In this document: positions 2,593 to 42,461 of the stretch, piece after piece
Numbering within the stretch: position 1 is the stretch's first letter
Layout: each line of letters starts with the position of its first letter
Source of the DNA: Lentilactobacillus hilgardii DSM 20176 = ATCC 8290
GTDB taxonomy: Bacteria > Bacillota > Bacilli > Lactobacillales > Lactobacillaceae
NCBI RefSeq assembly: GCF_000159315.1
Contig: NZ_GG669996.1
Coordinates: 3,431 to 48,617 of the forward strand
Length of the DNA: 45,187 bases
Reading direction: 5' to 3'
The notes under the pieces: generated by a model
Told to the model about the DNA's origin: nothing
Databases searched by the model: none
What the model saw: the letters and a program-made list of their open reading frames with translations, nothing else
Translations under genes and position numbers: made by a program

Positions 2593-3414
2593 ATGATTCG
2601 AATAGCAGCCTCTAGTGACAACCACTTGGATTTGAATAAAGTACCAACTGACGGTATCATTCATCAGCAAGCTCAATATTTAACTGAAAATAAAATTGAT
2701 TATTATTTAGTAGCAGGTGATTTGTTTAACGATTTCCACGAAACTGTCAGTTATATTCAGCAATTGTCAGGACAACTATCTATTACTCAAGTGTTGTTTA
2801 TCGCAGGCAATCACGATATGATACGAAACGTGACCTATGATCAATTGGAAAATGGACATTGGCCGGGTTATTTAAATAATCACTATTTTGATATTCCGGA
2901 GACAAATTATCGAATTATAGGGCTAAATGGTTGGTATGACTATTCATTTGCAAAGAACACCGGCAAAACAGAAGTACAATTTCACCAATGGAAAATGGCC
3001 TATTGGATAGATAGCCTTATTAAGCAGCCTATGAGCGATCCACAACGAGAGGGAATAGTTATTGACAAATTAAAAGAGCAGCTTGAGATGGCCCAAAAGG
3101 CGCAAAAAAAGGTTATTTTAATGACACACTTTGTACCAAACCAATTGTTTATTCGATATACAGGTGATAATCGATTTTGGAACATGGCTAATGCAATGCT
3201 CGGTAGTGTGAAAGTCGGGCAACTGATTGACGAATATGCTGTTCCCATTGTTATTTTTGGACACATTCATGATCATATGAATCCCAGGAAAATTGGAAAC
3301 ACATGGTATTATAACGGTGCAGTTGGATACCATAATCATCACCATAATGAATGGCAGACCAATACCTTTTATAGTGAGTGGCTAAAGCAGTTAAAAACAA
3401 TTCAACTTTTTTAA
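2593..3414 (+). CDS. Calcineurin-like metallophosphoesterase
   Basis: 273 residues. The metal-binding blocks of the metallophosphoesterase fold are all present: DNH (Asp9-His11), GD (Asp43), GNHD (72-75), MTH near residue 178 and GHIHDH near 222. These hold two metal ions and hydrolyse phosphoesters. The family is broad (protein, nucleotide or cyclic-nucleotide phosphatases) and nothing here fixes the substrate. There is no signal peptide, so it is cytoplasmic. The ATG follows AGGAGA. It lies just behind the dtpT terminator, whose T-run overlaps the region where its own promoter would be expected. Confidence 0.85.
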   Translation: MIRIAASSDNHLDLNKVPTDGIIHQQAQYLTENKIDYYLVAGDLFNDFHETVSYIQQLSGQLSITQVLFIAGNHDMIRNVTYDQLENGHWPGYLNNHYFDIPETNYRIIGLNGWYDYSFAKNTGKTEVQFHQWKMAYWIDSLIKQPMSDPQREGIVIDKLKEQLEMAQKAQKKVILMTHFVPNQLFIRYTGDNRFWNMANAMLGSVKVGQLIDEYAVPIVIFGHIHDHMNPRKIGNTWYYNGAVGYHNHHHNEWQTNTFYSEWLKQLKTIQLF

Positions 3415-3423
3415 TAATTTTGC

Positions 3424-3452
3424 TTGACGAAATAGCGATAATTTTGTATTAT
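3424..3452 (+). promoter_or_regulatory. Predicted promoter of the tRNA-Tyr/tRNA-Gln pair
   Basis: TTGACG (3424-3429) and TATTAT (3447-3452) are 17 bp apart, about 34 bp before the first tRNA. Confidence 0.65.
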
Positions 3453-3485: not shown

Positions 3486-3568
3486 GGAGGGGTAGCGAAG
3501 TCTGGCTAAACGCGGCGGACTGTAAATCCGCTCCTTCGGGTTCGGTGGTTCGAATCCACTCCCCTCCA
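3486..3568 (+). tRNA. tRNA-Tyr (anticodon GTA)
   Basis: The acceptor stem GGAGGGG/CCCCTCC is perfect. The anticodon loop carries GTA at 3522-3524, and a long variable arm follows, as in bacterial type II tRNA-Tyr. The T-loop TTCGAAT is normal. CCA is not encoded. Confidence 0.95.
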
Positions 3569-3577
3569 TTTTATTCT

Positions 3578-3649
3578 TGGGCTATAGCCAAGAGGTAAGG
3601 CAACGGGTTTTGATCCCGTGATGCGCTGGTTCGAACCCAGCTAGCCCAA
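3578..3649 (+). tRNA. tRNA-Gln (anticodon TTG)
   Basis: Acceptor stem TGGGCTA/TAGCCCA, anticodon stem ACGGG/CCCGT, anticodon TTG at 3610-3612 and T-loop TTCGAAC. It lies 9 nt after tRNA-Tyr and is very probably cotranscribed with it. Confidence 0.95.
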
Positions 3650-3707: not shown

Positions 3708-4187
3708 GTGTCTCCCATTTCTTTGACTATCACTCATGGGTCAGCAAAAAGCTAGCCATTCTTAGATTAAAGGGTTTAGAAGCTAAAATACCTTCTTGCT
3801 TTTTTTATCAGTCTGGTAAAATTGGGGCTGTTTTGACATCTATACAAGCCGTTCGACGGTTTCGGGCGAGTCCTGAGCCCCTTGGTCATCCAACGGTTCC
3901 CAACACCCTATGATGACGCTGTTTGACGCTGAAAAAGTTGTTTTTTAAAATAGTATCGTTCCATTTTAAGACCAACAGTTCCGATTCTTGCATGCAGAAA
4001 GAATAGTTGAAGGGCTTGATTATCATCTTTGAGGTATCCAATGAAATGCCGCAATTTTTCTCTATCATAAATAGTTTTTAATATTTTGGCCTATATGTCG
4101 TCTATTTGTTTGGAGGAGACGATTTTCACTTCTTTTTATCTGAATCAATAGCTAATTCATTTAGTCAGATGATGTTTTGTTTAGATA
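3708..4187. other. Region without a credible gene; possible remnant
   Basis: About 480 bp between the tRNA terminator and the DUF805 gene's terminator. Short open frames exist on both strands (3653-3913 plus, 3886-4068 minus), but neither has a ribosome binding site or a recognisable domain. The segment 3848-3910 is clearly more GC-rich than its surroundings and contains no stop on one strand. Together with the position behind tRNA genes, this suggests a degraded insertion, but no transposase motif or terminal repeats could be identified. Confidence 0.35.
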
Positions 4188-4218
4188 CAAAAAAGGTTGA
4201 TATCTTACGGCATCAACC
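4188..4218 (-). terminator. Terminator of the DUF805 gene
   Basis: Read on the minus strand, GGTTGAT (4218-4212) pairs with ATCAACC (4201-4195) and is followed by a T-run (complement of A at 4188-4194). Confidence 0.8.
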
Positions 4219-4235
4219 CCTAAAATAAAAAACGA

Positions 4236-4613
4236 TTATCTCTTATCCCAACGGTTAGCCTTGCTGGGAAATACCATTAAAATAAAGAACCAGATTGTTC
4301 CAATTAATGGTACTAAATCAATTAAAATCCACCAACCAACATGATCAGAATCATGTAATCGACGTATCTTAACTGTAAATGTAGCAATCCAAACGATCAA
4401 GCCGACTGTTCGAACGGTGGAATCCACTGCTAAATCTTTCAAATTTCTGATCGAATCAAATGAGTACCCAGTGACATGGCTAATAATAATGACAGCGATA
4501 ATACCTAAAACGTAATTGATAATAATAGGCCACCAATAATCTGAACGACTGGCGGTACCAGAAACGTTAAAAATATTTTTCCAAAAACGTTTATACGATG
4601 TAATCATAGTCAA
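4236..4613 (-). CDS. DUF805 family inner-membrane protein
   Basis: 125 residues. The family hallmarks are visible: an N-terminal amphipathic FWKNIFNVSGTASRSDYWW segment, three to four membrane helices, and the conserved IRRLHDSDHVGWW motif before the last two helices. DUF805 proteins are widespread small membrane proteins of unknown function, often beside phage or stress genes. It is transcribed alone, against the flanking genes, with its own terminator. The start is the ATG at 4613; GAGAGAGGG lies just upstream on the minus strand. Confidence 0.85.
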   Translation of the reverse strand: MTMITSYKRFWKNIFNVSGTASRSDYWWPIIINYVLGIIAVIIISHVTGYSFDSIRNLKDLAVDSTVRTVGLIVWIATFTVKIRRLHDSDHVGWWILIDLVPLIGTIWFFILMVFPSKANRWDKR

Positions 4614-12106: not shown

Positions 12107-12115
12107 ATTCTCAAA

Positions 12116-12244
12116 TAAAGGGAGTAACCAGCAATAGTAATTGCGAATATCTCGTCAACGTGTAATCTTGTATTTCCGGGATATTTCTTAAATGGTGAGA
12201 CTTATGAATTCTTTTCACAAGAGTTTATGGGTCTCTTTTTCTTT
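12116..12244 (+). promoter_or_regulatory. yybP-ykoY family riboswitch (Mn2+) with terminator
   Basis: The conserved aptamer pieces are readable in order: AAAGGGAGTAACCAGC (from about 12117), TCGTCAAC (about 12153) and CCGGGATATTTC (about 12177). The expression platform is a long stem, GAGACTTATGAATTCTT (12197-12213) with AAGAGTTTATGGGTCTC (12219-12235), paired throughout if G-T pairs are counted. It runs into TTTTTCTTT. In this family Mn2+ binding favours the aptamer and lets transcription continue. The same element controls the P-type ATPase YoaB in Lactococcus. The aptamer call is by eye, without a covariance model. Confidence 0.85.
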
Positions 12245-12260
12245 AAAAAGGAGGAAATTA

Positions 12261-14927
12261 ATGAAGCAGCAGGGAAAATTATTTTATCAACAATCCGTTA
12301 ATGACGTCATGCAGCAAATGAAAGCGAATCCTGAAGGGTTATCGGACCAGTCTGTTGAACAGCGGCGGGCACAATTTGGTTATAATCGACTTCAGGCAAA
12401 GCGTCGGACAACGTTATTTGAAAAATTTATCGCACAATTTAAAGATTTAATGATTATCATTTTGATTATTGCAGCAATTATTGCGGGGATTGCCGGAGAA
12501 CATATTGATGCTGCAATTATTATTGCTGTGGTCATTTTAAATGCGGTCTTCGGCGTCTTTCAAGAGTCAAAGGCAGAAAATGCAATTGATTCGTTGAAAC
12601 AGATGTCGGCTCCAATGGCTACAGTGCTGAGAAATGGCCGTGAGACAACGGTTAAAAGTGAAGAGATTGTTCCTGGAGATATTGTTCTTCTTGAAGCAGG
12701 AGATGTTGTGCCTGCTGATATTCGATTGATCGAAACAAATACTTTAAAAATTGAAGAAGCAGCTTTAACAGGGGAATCGGTGCCGGTTAATAAGCAGGTT
12801 GAGACAATTAATGACACAGATCTGCCACTTGGTGATCGTAAGAATCTTGGCTTTATGAACAGCAATGTAACCTCCGGACGCGGAGTCGGGGTGGTTACCG
12901 GCACCGGGATGAACACTGAGGTTGGTAAGATTGCCCATATGTTAAACACAACGGAAGAAGCAACAACGCCTCTTCAAGAAAATCTCAATAAGCTTGGTAA
13001 GGTATTAACAATTCTGATTTTAGTTATTGCAGTTATTGTCTTTGGTGTTGGTATGTGGCGAGGCGAGGAAAGCCTGATTAATATGCTGTTAACAGCCATT
13101 TCTTTAGCGGTTGCGGCTATTCCGGAAGGCCTGCCTGCTATTGTGACTGTTACTTTGGCAATTGGTACGCAACAAATGGCCCGCCACCGTGCGCTGATTC
13201 GAAAATTACAAGCTGTGGAAACATTGGGAAGTACGGATATTATTGCATCGGATAAAACCGGAACGTTGACCCAGAATAAGATGACCGTTGAAAAAGTTTA
13301 TTTGGATGGTCAACTAAAAGACTCTGGCGAAACGAAGCAGTTATTATCAGACAAATTACCACAGATTATGATTTTAAATAACGATACAAAATTTTTGGAA
13401 GACGGATTAGGTGGTGATCCAACCGAAACAGCTTTGATTTCGTTTTATTTAAATCATGATTTGCCGGTTCAGGAATTCATTAAAAAGTATCAGCGTGTGG
13501 CTGAGATTCCGTTTGATTCTGAACGAAAATTGATGTCAACCTATAACAAAGTTGATGACGGCCAAATCATGATGACGATGAAAGGTGCACCGGACCAACT
13601 ACTGGCTCGCGTTACCCAAATTCTTGATCATGGTCAAGTTCGGCAAATCACAGATGAAGATAAGCAAAAGATCAGCGAAACAAATCATGAGTTAGCTACG
13701 CAAGCATTAAGGGTACTGGCTTTTGCATATCGAATGGTTGATAAAGTACCAACAGAATTAACGAGTGATGCCCAGGAACATGACATGATCTTTACAGGGT
13801 TGATCGGCATGATTGATCCCGAGAGGCCTGAAGTAGCGCAAGCAGTTGCAGAAGCAAAGACTGCGGGAATTAAATCTGTCATGATTACCGGAGACCATCA
13901 GGATACGGCTCAGGCGATTGCCAAGCGACTCGGAATTCTAGAGAGATCCGATCATTCAACTGATAGGGTCATTAACGGGGCGCAACTGGATGAATTATCA
14001 GACAGCCAGTTTGAGAACCAGGTTGAAAACATTGCCGTTTATGCCAGAGTTGCACCGGAACACAAGGTTAGAATTGTGAATGCCTGGCAAAAGAAGGGTA
14101 AAGTCGTTGCGATGACCGGTGACGGTGTTAATGATGCACCGGCGTTAAAAGCGGCTGACATTGGTGTCGGAATGGGAATTACAGGTACTGAAGTTTCGAA
14201 AGAAGCCAGCGATATGGTTCTGGCCGATGACAATTTTGCAACAATTGTAACGGCAGTTAAAGCAGGGCGAAAAGTATTTGCCAATATTCAAAAGTCACTT
14301 CAATATCTGTTGTCTGCCAACCTAGGGGAGGTTTTGACATTGTTTGTCATGACCATGATGGGTTGGGAGATTTTGGCACCGGTTCAAATTCTTTGGATTA
14401 ATCTGGTGACAGATACTTTTCCAGCTATTGCATTAGGTGTTGAACTGGCAGAGCCGGGAATTATGAAACGTAAACCGCGTGGACGCTCGTCAAATTTCCT
14501 GTCGGGCGGAATTATGAGTAATATTCTTTATCAAGGATTCTTTGAAGGCTTTATTACTTTAAGTGTATACGCGTTTGCCATCTTGAATCCAGTTCATTCG
14601 TCAGAAGCATTAATTCATGCGGATGCATTGACAATGGCCTATGCAACTCTTGGGTTGATTCAATTATTCCACGCATTTAATTCGAAAACGATCCATCAAT
14701 CCATTTTCAAGGTGGGGCTTTTCAAGAATAAATTCTTTAATTGGGCACTTTTGGGTTCTACATTACTACTGGTGCTCACAATTGTTGTACCTGGATTTAA
14801 TGATATGTTCCATGTCACTGAATTAGGCCCTTCACAATGGATTGTTGTGATTATTGGCGGATTTATGATCGTTGTTATCTCAGAAGTAGTAAAATATGTA
14901 CAGCGTCATTTCTTCAATCAACAATAA
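12261..14927 (+). CDS. P-type cation-transporting ATPase (P2A, Ca2+/Mn2+ efflux type)
   Basis: 888 residues from the ATG preceded by AAAGGAGG; an upstream in-frame ATG at 12192 lies inside the riboswitch. It has the N-terminal cation ATPase domain, TGES (170-173) in the actuator domain, the phosphorylated Asp331 in DKTGTLT, and GDGVNDAP (620-627). The ion-site helices are M4 PEGLP, M5 NLGEV and M6 NLVTDTFPAIALGVE, as in Ca2+ pumps of the SERCA/PMR1 group, some of which move Mn2+. With a Mn2+-type riboswitch in front, Mn2+ export or detoxification is the likely role; Ca2+ export remains possible. There are about 10 membrane helices. The next gene starts 23 bp downstream with no terminator between. 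Confidence 0.93.
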   Translation: MKQQGKLFYQQSVNDVMQQMKANPEGLSDQSVEQRRAQFGYNRLQAKRRTTLFEKFIAQFKDLMIIILIIAAIIAGIAGEHIDAAIIIAVVILNAVFGVFQESKAENAIDSLKQMSAPMATVLRNGRETTVKSEEIVPGDIVLLEAGDVVPADIRLIETNTLKIEEAALTGESVPVNKQVETINDTDLPLGDRKNLGFMNSNVTSGRGVGVVTGTGMNTEVGKIAHMLNTTEEATTPLQENLNKLGKVLTILILVIAVIVFGVGMWRGEESLINMLLTAISLAVAAIPEGLPAIVTVTLAIGTQQMARHRALIRKLQAVETLGSTDIIASDKTGTLTQNKMTVEKVYLDGQLKDSGETKQLLSDKLPQIMILNNDTKFLEDGLGGDPTETALISFYLNHDLPVQEFIKKYQRVAEIPFDSERKLMSTYNKVDDGQIMMTMKGAPDQLLARVTQILDHGQVRQITDEDKQKISETNHELATQALRVLAFAYRMVDKVPTELTSDAQEHDMIFTGLIGMIDPERPEVAQAVAEAKTAGIKSVMITGDHQDTAQAIAKRLGILERSDHSTDRVINGAQLDELSDSQFENQVENIAVYARVAPEHKVRIVNAWQKKGKVVAMTGDGVNDAPALKAADIGVGMGITGTEVSKEASDMVLADDNFATIVTAVKAGRKVFANIQKSLQYLLSANLGEVLTLFVMTMMGWEILAPVQILWINLVTDTFPAIALGVELAEPGIMKRKPRGRSSNFLSGGIMSNILYQGFFEGFITLSVYAFAILNPVHSSEALIHADALTMAYATLGLIQLFHAFNSKTIHQSIFKVGLFKNKFFNWALLGSTLLLVLTIVVPGFNDMFHVTELGPSQWIVVIIGGFMIVVISEVVKYVQRHFFNQQ

Positions 14928-14950: not shown

Positions 14951-15382
14951 TTGAAACCACAAGACTTAAGAAGATATGCCAAAATTGTTTCCGATATTAT
15001 CGATTCAACACAATCAAACGGTGAAGATTTAAATGCAGACTACGAAGTGTTGAGAAAATCAATTGATGATAAGACCGTTTCTGACCTTGGTTCAGATAGA
15101 TTAACACAAATTAAAACGCATTTTCAGTCTGGAACTGATAAGTATCAAGACAATGTAAATAAGCTTGAACAGGCGCCGGTACCGGTTAAAATACTGGGTA
15201 AACATAAAATATTAGTCAGAGCCTATGCGGATTATGCGAATGCATGTCAGGATATGACAGACAGCTTAAATCCTGAAGATGCATCGATTGATGCCAAAAA
15301 ATTCAATCGATCTGAAAAAGACCAGGAAAATCACATTGCAAAAGTTTCTGACGTTACGACAAGAATTATGGGAATGTTATAA
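14951..15382 (+). CDS. Uncharacterised helical protein in the riboswitch transcript
   Basis: 143 residues from a TTG at 14951 with ATGGGGG (14934-14940) correctly spaced. The same frame is open further upstream, but that part lies inside the ATPase gene and has no ribosome binding site. The protein is hydrophilic and predicted to be almost all helix: heptad-like segments in residues 5-75, then VPVKILGKHKILVRAYADYANACQDMTDSL and an acidic-basic C-terminus. There is no signal peptide, membrane segment or metal-ligand cluster. No family was recognised. It follows the ATPase by 23 bp, so it is probably under the same Mn2+ riboswitch, which suggests a role in metal or envelope homeostasis. That role is inference only. 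Confidence 0.7.
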   Translation: MKPQDLRRYAKIVSDIIDSTQSNGEDLNADYEVLRKSIDDKTVSDLGSDRLTQIKTHFQSGTDKYQDNVNKLEQAPVPVKILGKHKILVRAYADYANACQDMTDSLNPEDASIDAKKFNRSEKDQENHIAKVSDVTTRIMGML

Positions 15383-15655
15383 AAAGTGTGAAAATCTAGT
15401 CTGGGATAACTCGGAATGTAAGCCAGCGGGAAGCAAATTCCTGTTTTGGGGATTTGACGGTTGTTGGTTTACATGCAGGTTTATGATTAGAGGAACAGTC
15501 CTAAAAAAGTGTGCGAATCAAAGCGGTTAACATCTGGAGCATAAGGCGTCAAATTGGGAAATCCCGAACTTGGATTTTTTAATTTGATCCCTTATGAGGA
15601 GCGATGTTGCTTTGAGGAACAGTCCTAAAAAAGTGTGCGAATCAAAGCGGTTAGT
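15381..15655 (+). repeat. Tandem array of about 123-nt structured repeat units
   Basis: Units start with A(5-6)GTGTG and end with GAGGAACAGTCCT: 15381-15502 (unit 1), 15503-15625 (unit 2) and the beginning of a third at 15626-15655. A 40-nt stretch at 15490-15529 is repeated exactly at 15614-15653. Each full unit folds into a long hairpin. In unit 1, TGTAAGCCA pairs with TGGTTTACA and CAAATTCC with GGGATTTG. In unit 2, CAAAGC/GCTTTG, AACATC/GATGTT, CATAAGG/CCTTATG and TCAAATT/AATTTGA pair. The arms differ in sequence while the folds are similar, pointing to selection on structure. It could be a MITE-like element, processed RNAs or a folded 3' UTR. Confidence 0.75.
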
Positions 15656-15705
15656 AGTCGATTTTAGGCCGTAATGAGCATTTCTTTATAGTACCGTCTG
15701 ATTTT

Positions 15706-15756
15706 GAGAACCTTTTTCTTCTCCCAAATATGGGGCTTGAAGAAGGTTCTCTTTTT
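15706..15756 (+). terminator. Terminator after the repeat array
   Basis: GAGAACC (15706-15712) pairs with GGTTCTC (15745-15751), extended by TTCTTC/GAAGAA, followed by five T. It probably ends the ATPase-protein-repeat transcript, so the repeats would lie in its 3' UTR. Confidence 0.85.
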
Positions 15757-15783
15757 GGTTCAACTTATTTTGACCATTTGGCA

Positions 15784-15792
15784 TGATATAAT
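15784..15792 (+). promoter_or_regulatory. Extended -10 promoter of tex
   Basis: TGATATAAT is a consensus extended -10; no good -35 is present at 17 bp. It lies 34 bp before the chosen tex start. Confidence 0.55.
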
Positions 15793-15825
15793 GAAAGCTA
15801 GATTAATAATGAGGTGGGTTATTTC

Positions 15826-19530: not shown

Positions 19531-19616
19531 GCGGCCATGGCGGAATTGGCAGACGCGCAAGATTAAGGATCTTGTCGGGAATTATCCCGGTGGAAGTTCG
19601 AATCTTCTTGGCCGCA
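19531..19616 (+). tRNA. tRNA-Leu (anticodon AAG)
   Basis: Acceptor GCGGCCA/TGGCCGC, anticodon stem CAAGA/TCTTG with loop TTAAGGA, so the anticodon is AAG at 19565-19567. There is a long variable arm (CGGGAATTATCCCG), as expected for leucine. An A at position 34 implies deamination to inosine by TadA. CCA is not encoded. Confidence 0.9.
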
Positions 19617-42322: not shown

Positions 42323-42329
42323 GTTAAAT

Positions 42330-42428
42330 GCTGATATATGCCTAAGACTCAGGTGGCAATTGCCTTAATATCCTGCCGAGGAAACGAATCTTTTTCCTAT
42401 GTCTAGGTTGGCATAGGGATTTTTTATT
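42330..42428 (+). promoter_or_regulatory. L10 leader with terminator
   Basis: The segment CCTAAGACTCAGGTGGC...TAATATCCTGCCGAGG (about 42340-42381) matches the L10(L12)4 binding leader of Firmicutes. It is followed by CCTATG (42396-42401)/CATAGG (42412-42417) and a T-run, a terminator. The excess L10-L12 complex is expected to favour termination. Confidence 0.85.
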
Positions 42429-42461
42429 AAATCCCATAAAAATTTTTGGGAGGTGAAACTC

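Follow-up and report, generated by a model that had tools for sequence, protein, structure and literature searches.

The tandem array of hairpins at 15386-15653 of the window (by which we mean the whole 45,187-nucleotide stretch of Lentilactobacillus hilgardii DNA analysed here) is probably one of a family of small mobile elements, interspersed and non-autonomous, whose fold is kept for their own propagation. Members of the family are dispersed, share a fold with a preference for one strand, are anchored at the edges of coding regions, are missing from some orthologous sites and differ in unit number at others; we infer that they move by way of a folded single strand. The features concerned are given below, with scores from R1, a covariance model built from units of the same genome.

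12261..14927, plus strand: P-type cation ATPase gene, upstream context (open reading frame 12192-14927; Pfam E1-E2_ATPase and Cation_ATPase_C; start picked by ribosome-binding site)
14951..15382, plus strand: hypothetical gene, 142 aa (open reading frame, start approximate; stop codon TAA at 15380-15382)
15386..15502, plus strand: unit 1, 117 nt, stem subtype CTAGTC..GATTAG (R1 87.2 bits, E 1.8e-22)
15509..15626, plus strand: unit 2, 118 nt, stem subtype CAAAGC..GCTTTG (R1 115.6 bits, E 3.6e-31)
15633..15653, plus strand: third unit, 3'-truncated, present as a 5' fragment only (21 nt, matching the start of unit 2 exactly)
15700..15756 (approximate), plus strand: probable terminator, a long U-tailed hairpin (from folding of 15627-15760)

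An earlier note on this DNA had described a tandem array of structured repeats here, and so it proved: two units of 117-118 nt are followed by the start of a third, the first unit beginning 3 nt past the stop codon of the hypothetical gene. The 40-nt block reported as common to both copies, GAGGAACAGTCCT-A6-GTGTGCGAATCAAAGCGGTTA, does occur twice in identical form. As was also claimed, the two hairpins differ in sequence yet pair, both folding beyond their dinucleotide shuffles, with 0/200 equal in either case (z -3.84 for unit 1, 15382-15503; z -4.42 for unit 2, 15504-15626). The array is absent from the list of Tandem Repeats Finder; the hairpins of the two units differ in sequence. Its neighbours are the 142-aa hypothetical gene, which has no Pfam match (14954-15382) and is itself matched in 23 of 24 Lentilactobacillus genomes, and, on the other side, a Tex gene. 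A position between a gene and a strong terminator had been proposed, and the hypothetical gene and a long U-tailed hairpin do flank the array, but the pattern scan for terminators lists only a small site within unit 2 and not that hairpin. The supposed manganese riboswitch of the ATPase gene is not confirmed: Rfam has no yybP-ykoY match at the ATPase leader, only a sub-threshold SSRC10 (34.3 bits; gathering 56). Another gene intervenes between the ATPase gene and the array. This leader (12115-12240) has a hairpin and T-run immediately 5' of the ribosome-binding site. The top promoter-like site of the scanned stretch (10/12, TTCACA-16-CATAAT) is on the minus strand at 15365-15392, overlapping the stop codon together with the first nucleotides of unit 1 and directed antisense into the hypothetical gene; it may be due to chance, the scan having returned 8 sites against 3.6 expected.

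A unit forms one imperfect hairpin, about 117 nt long (117-118), running from GTGTG to AGTCCT and often found in tandem. The outer part comprises P0 (3-4 bp), an internal loop, P1 (6 bp) and a 4-nt bulge on the 5' arm, which sits inside a conserved GCGGTTA-like motif; the inner part comprises P2 (7 bp), an internal loop, an inner helix of 25 bp and a T-rich loop. This fold is genuine, and covariation shows that evolution keeps it. For the own-genome alignment, 38 of 48 regular-expression candidates were kept and 10 dropped, after reading the first 30 loci. RNAalifold on these 38 units gives 41 pairs, 31 with compensatory change, and 94.9% of cells are paired, versus 78.5% in shuffles and 39-46% with slid partners. 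Among 149 distinct units from the named loci, compensatory change affects 36 of the 41 pairs, with 98.2% of cells paired, versus 77.6% in shuffles. This second alignment, the best 150 of 210 R1 matches, leans toward good folds, and its rows were aligned to the model, hence a bias toward structure; the slid controls nevertheless reach only 36-47%. In neither set do any of 500 shuffles attain the pairing of the real alignment (slid pairings 36-47% versus 95-98%). To illustrate, the outermost position of P0 pairs as A-U in 99 rows, U-A in 28 and C-G in 7 of the 149 distinct units, although copies are related by descent, and pair counts are therefore not independent. Selection on structure, as the earlier note had suspected, is thus supported by covariation across many copies, and the covariance-model check that it proposed, run with own-genome units, returned many further copies with covarying stems. 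At gathering score, Rfam 15 places no family over the units of the window or of 11 array-bearing loci, and a scan of 15300-15800 at E<=5 gave four weak hits, all on the downstream hairpin and none on the units.

The genome that holds the window contains about 50 copies. Using blastn, 61 matches are found at E<=10 (window copy included) and 51 at E<=1e-5; R1 gives 54 matches at E<=1e-8 and 84 rows at E<=1, such whole-genome R1 counts containing some reverse-strand echoes of the palindrome, many of them among these 84 rows. R1 matches occur in 19 of 24 Lentilactobacillus genomes (E<=1e-8), with at least 150 matches in four, 54-136 in nine, 21-31 in three, a single match in three and none in five. 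In the Lactobacillaceae as a whole, 110 of 301 sampled genomes have matches, spanning 22 of 40 genera. Order-wide, 20 of 295 genomes match, and eight of these lie outside the family, with 1-4 matches each. Units were read in five of the eight, and the three that were folded follow the same plan, including the bulge after P1; a sixth (G402) has a score exactly equal to that of the copper-cassette copy described below. A pattern scan of named genomes yielded at least 119 loci, of which 114, among the matches listed, are from Lentilactobacillus, Lacticaseibacillus and Secundilactobacillus. All 119 entered the HMM placement analysis, while R1 was run on 81 sources, giving the 210 matches, with 39 of the 119 loci not included. 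The other five (Falkowbacteria, Lachnospiraceae, Pseudomonas, Bacteroidia and Clostridiaceae) have no model match and were rejected as carriers outside the lactobacilli, as was a phage origin, for which the single viral pattern match has no model match.

The family also extends to plasmids. A blastn search of plasmids with unit 2 returned nothing. There is a near-identical plasmid copy 5' of a copper ATPase gene, in opposite orientation to it, with a CopY repressor gene on the other side in the one plasmid record opened. This copper-cassette copy, queried with its flanks, is at least 80% covered in 74 of 95 matching plasmid records from several genera. A weaker relative of the unit, L222 (R1 46.1 bits), matches 117 plasmid records by blastn, 92 of them from Enterococcus and 116 at 60-80% identity. 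One of these Enterococcus records, L272, has a similar hairpin of the same plan, by eye and by folding, but R1 fails to match it at E<=0.01, which leaves L222 as the basis of the enterococcal link. At 1501-1900 of L272, which comes from an Enterococcus faecium plasmid, the full-length hairpin gives way to shorter modules, seemingly without the inner hairpin. Elsewhere, in a genome of another family, group II intron matches adjoin a unit array (L220, 964-1666).

Placement relative to genes was surveyed for 175 arrays of the named loci, with gene edges taken from our own open reading frame calls; eight have no 5' neighbour. Arrays are anchored through their 5' end, which lies at a coding-region edge. 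Of the 167 with a 5' neighbour, 73 share its strand, at a median of 3 nt from its stop codon, and 94 are antisense to it, at a median of 23 nt upstream of its start. Antisense arrays often lie just beyond CCTCC, the complement of the ribosome-binding site, and 47 of the 94 are found 10-31 nt upstream of the neighbour's start. When only arrays with both neighbours and no large overlap are considered (64, 70, 62 and 72 in the four comparisons), and the expectation is uniform placement in the same gap, the 5' end falls within -4..+5 of a same-strand stop codon in 40/64 cases versus 4.2 expected, and 10-31 nt upstream of an opposite-strand start in 39/70 versus 10.4 expected. The 3' end shows no comparable excess on the stop side (3/62 versus 4.7) or the start side (3/72 versus 9.1). 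In the genome of the window, the 5' neighbour shares the strand of the array in 21 of 30 cases. Arrays that lie between co-directional genes run in one direction as often as in the other (47 versus 51). The base preceding the first unit is A in 87 of 87 arrays tested, and an A-rich run precedes that A. No clear target duplication was detected in these arrays, the longest word common to the 14-nt flanks averaging 3.82 versus 3.65 nt when permuted (1.7 SD of permuted means) and flank words of at least 6 nt occurring in 7/87 versus 4.4, though short, long or imprecise duplications may exist. Terminators adjoining antisense arrays are mildly enriched (7/56 versus 1.8 expected); at 7 of 56, they were rejected as a general target. 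At L146, arrays 2860-3100 and 4212-4329 adjoin T-box leaders (3195-3440 and 3927-4170) and apparently separate them from their genes.

Such placement invites the reading that these are cis-acting mRNA elements, with hairpins involved in stabilising or processing the upstream mRNA at its 3' end (or acting in the 5' UTR of the opposite-strand gene) and kept for that reason. In its favour, same-strand arrays start at stop codons in strong excess, the window array stands 5' of a probable terminator, and ERIC repeats are reported (PMC2229807) to influence upstream mRNA stability. We nevertheless regard this as unlikely, both because more than half of the arrays are antisense to their 5' neighbour while keeping the strand preference described below, and because in 17 of 23 genomes the hypothetical gene that hosts the window array lacks a unit immediately past its stop codon. 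The description of the array as a 3' UTR element therefore suits the window copy and breaks down as a general rule.

A G-T pair becomes an A-C mismatch when the opposite strand is read, so the balance of the two indicates which strand is selected. In aligned units, the ratio of G-T to A-C is 146:5 for arrays next to stop codons and 203:17 for antisense ones (Fisher p 0.12); among rare pair types it is 21:4 (sense) versus 27:14 (antisense, p 0.16). Near-neighbour differences, between units of at least 80% identity, give 47:9 in sense and 88:19 in antisense arrays (Fisher p 0.83), and 198:38 overall. As G-T far exceeds A-C in both settings, selection seems to act on the element's own plus strand and not on the host mRNA, the main caveat being the shared ancestry of the copies. 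That the plus strand is favoured with or without a host transcript argues against the neighbouring mRNA as the sole selected molecule, and the many antisense arrays, with the same asymmetry, imply that a dedicated 3'-UTR role is not the general explanation, even if sense arrays show a somewhat greater excess of G-T, as a cis-acting role would have it.

The plus-strand preference in sense and antisense arrays alike could also reflect transcription of that strand into discrete, structured, trans-acting RNAs, for instance ones that bind a protein at the conserved GCGGTTA bulge, and the recurrence of fold and bulge in units from other families of the order fits this. However, no plus-strand promoter-like site was found by the promoter scan in the window array, antisense arrays between co-directional genes would need a promoter of their own for a plus-strand transcript, and eight Lentilactobacillus genomes have one match (three) or none (five), so that we find the idea quite improbable. 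Very improbable, in our estimation, is a purely DNA-level process, such as quasi-palindrome correction by template switching or gene conversion, that would keep the arms alike with no selection on RNA or a single strand. Compensatory differences are indeed frequent, and chimeric units with mismatched P1 outer stems (L132 unit 3, L271) suggest recombination between units. Such correction should be strand-blind, though, and the plus-strand preference argues against it, with G-T over A-C at 198:38 among near-neighbour differences; several unpaired letters of the bulge and loops are conserved as well.

Orthologous sites reveal turnover, which bears on the preferred reading of a mobile element. Sense units directly follow the stop codon of the host gene in six of 23 genomes (the window's own, G551, G291, G233, G082 and G109), and these six orthologous arrays are of different subfamilies. 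In two others the host-gene spacer has an opposite-strand match further down (G548, 58.1 bits; G199, 39.0 bits), and the other 15 of the 23 lack any R1 match there at E<=0.01. The seven-unit array of L. kisonensis (L174) lies in an A-tract, with a leader hairpin on one side and a ribosome-binding site on the other; the orthologous site in L. sunkii is empty. The leader there resembles that of the window ATPase gene, at which the corresponding site is likewise empty. Other usable empty and filled pairs are L103 versus L015 and L178 versus L110, while L116 versus L113, L198 versus L152 and L108 versus L148 are too diverged for such a comparison. Between L. rapi and L. dabitei, arrays differ by whole units (2/1, 3/1, 4/1 and 6/2), their aligned pieces being 91-95% identical. 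A degenerate unit is found on the 3' side more often than on the 5' side (38 versus 6 in 170 named arrays; 17 versus 2 in 24 arrays of the window's genome). A universal 3' trailing fragment, frequent by eye in the latter genome, was rejected after a strict test found it in 17 of 133 named arrays (0.35 expected), and the first full unit had no significant advantage in quality over the last. In 21 pairs of units that are orthologous or presumed to be so (not all of these pairs being independent), the stems differ by 123 compensatory changes, 46 G-U changes and 22 broken pairs.

Under the reading of a small mobile repeat, the element would enter A-rich tracts and survive where the reading frame and ribosome-binding site stay whole; arrays may then grow or shrink by whole units through recombination, and the folded plus strand, as single-stranded DNA or RNA, would be needed for propagation of the element and not for the neighbouring mRNA. 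Several observations count against it. No strain-level insertion was seen. The static G-T excess is lower, non-significantly, in antisense arrays, the direction that a sense-mRNA role predicts. The mostly compensatory orthologous differences could mean local selection for function, although the same pattern would arise if units were replaced by other folded copies. Also against it, a search of two protein families yielded no mobilising enzyme. Y1_Tnp (PF01797) is absent from the genome of the window and present in 7 of 24 genomes of the genus, and RVT_1 is present in 8 of 24, neither tracking copy number; REP elements with a Y1 transposase and a retroelement were rejected on these grounds. Two divergent reverse-transcriptase open frames (448 and 700 aa) do occur in the genome of the window (G000:C111:209235-211166), with a similar pair in G051, and are possibly a defence system. 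A fuller version of the mobile reading, which we advance only tentatively, is that of a Lactobacillales-wide family whose folded plus strand (RNA or single-stranded DNA), without a recognised transposase, enters 3' of an A with no clear target duplication, becomes anchored by its 5' end at stop codons or, in the other orientation, at ribosome-binding sites, is selected irrespective of host context, and docks a putative mobilising protein through its bulge and loops.

With neither a mobilising enzyme nor a clear target duplication, the repeat is filed by kind, as a small interspersed repeat, and not as a member of REP, ERIC, RUP or YPAL. On the best reading, it would resemble in kind the interspersed repeats of enterococci and pneumococci. 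EFAR (Enterococcus faecalis repeats), from the same bacterial order, are palindromes of intergenic regions, modular and variable in length, with sites that may be filled or empty, and consist of two independent stem-loops. By description, they resemble the lactobacillar repeat in being intergenic, palindromic and modular with filled and empty sites, and differ from its one long interrupted hairpin in having two stem-loops. The Enterococcus plasmid relatives of L222 suggest that EFAR may prove to be an enterococcal branch of the family. The 163-nt intergenic family Efa-1 of E. faecalis, given in the available part of PMC2267715, may also be related; for L. johnsonii, the same part gives one family, in coding regions. 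BOX of pneumococcus, boxA-(boxB)n-boxC, is likewise short, interspersed and structured, with a repeatable module, and partly co-transcribed with its neighbours, but as described in PMC3049150 it is boxB that repeats, whereas here the whole unit does.

ERIC, RUP and Correia, as described in PMC2229807, are miniature elements (MITEs) of 100-200 nt, non-coding, with transcripts that would form long stem-loops, and are thus of about the same size class; the effect of ERIC is orientation-dependent. They have terminal inverted repeats, mostly TA ends, and a target duplication. Where they would show terminal inverted repeats of 7-24 bp, aligned or folded lactobacillar units have a P0 of 3-4 bp, and no clear target site duplication is seen in 87 arrays. 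YPAL, from the same text, is palindromic with internal inverted repeats and filled and empty sites, as is our repeat, and targets sites near dyad symmetry; it duplicates 3-26 bp, which is not clearly seen for lactobacillar arrays, where adjoining terminators are mildly enriched. REP or GTAG palindromes with RAYT transposases share the many intergenic copies, according to PMC3733652, and their ends often provide a stop codon for the flanking open reading frame, but they are 20-40 bp long and tagged, and the genome of the window has no Y1 transposase. For the lactobacilli family itself, no account was found in the top-ranked titles and abstract openings of a mostly open-access literature search.

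If this is correct, lactobacilli of food and probiotic use bear at coding-region edges a repeat family absent from Rfam, with at least 150 matches in some genomes. It would offer a natural experiment on the strand that evolution reads (one fold, two host orientations, one preference), together with a ready covariance model and fast-changing markers for strain typing, and would call for caution in annotating small RNAs, 3' UTRs and riboswitch leaders in these genomes. Among the structured RNAs of the window that Rfam does recognise are an ordinary ribosomal protein L10 leader at 42323-42434 (RF00557, 68.7 bits) and three tRNA genes, at 3486-3649 and 19531-19616.
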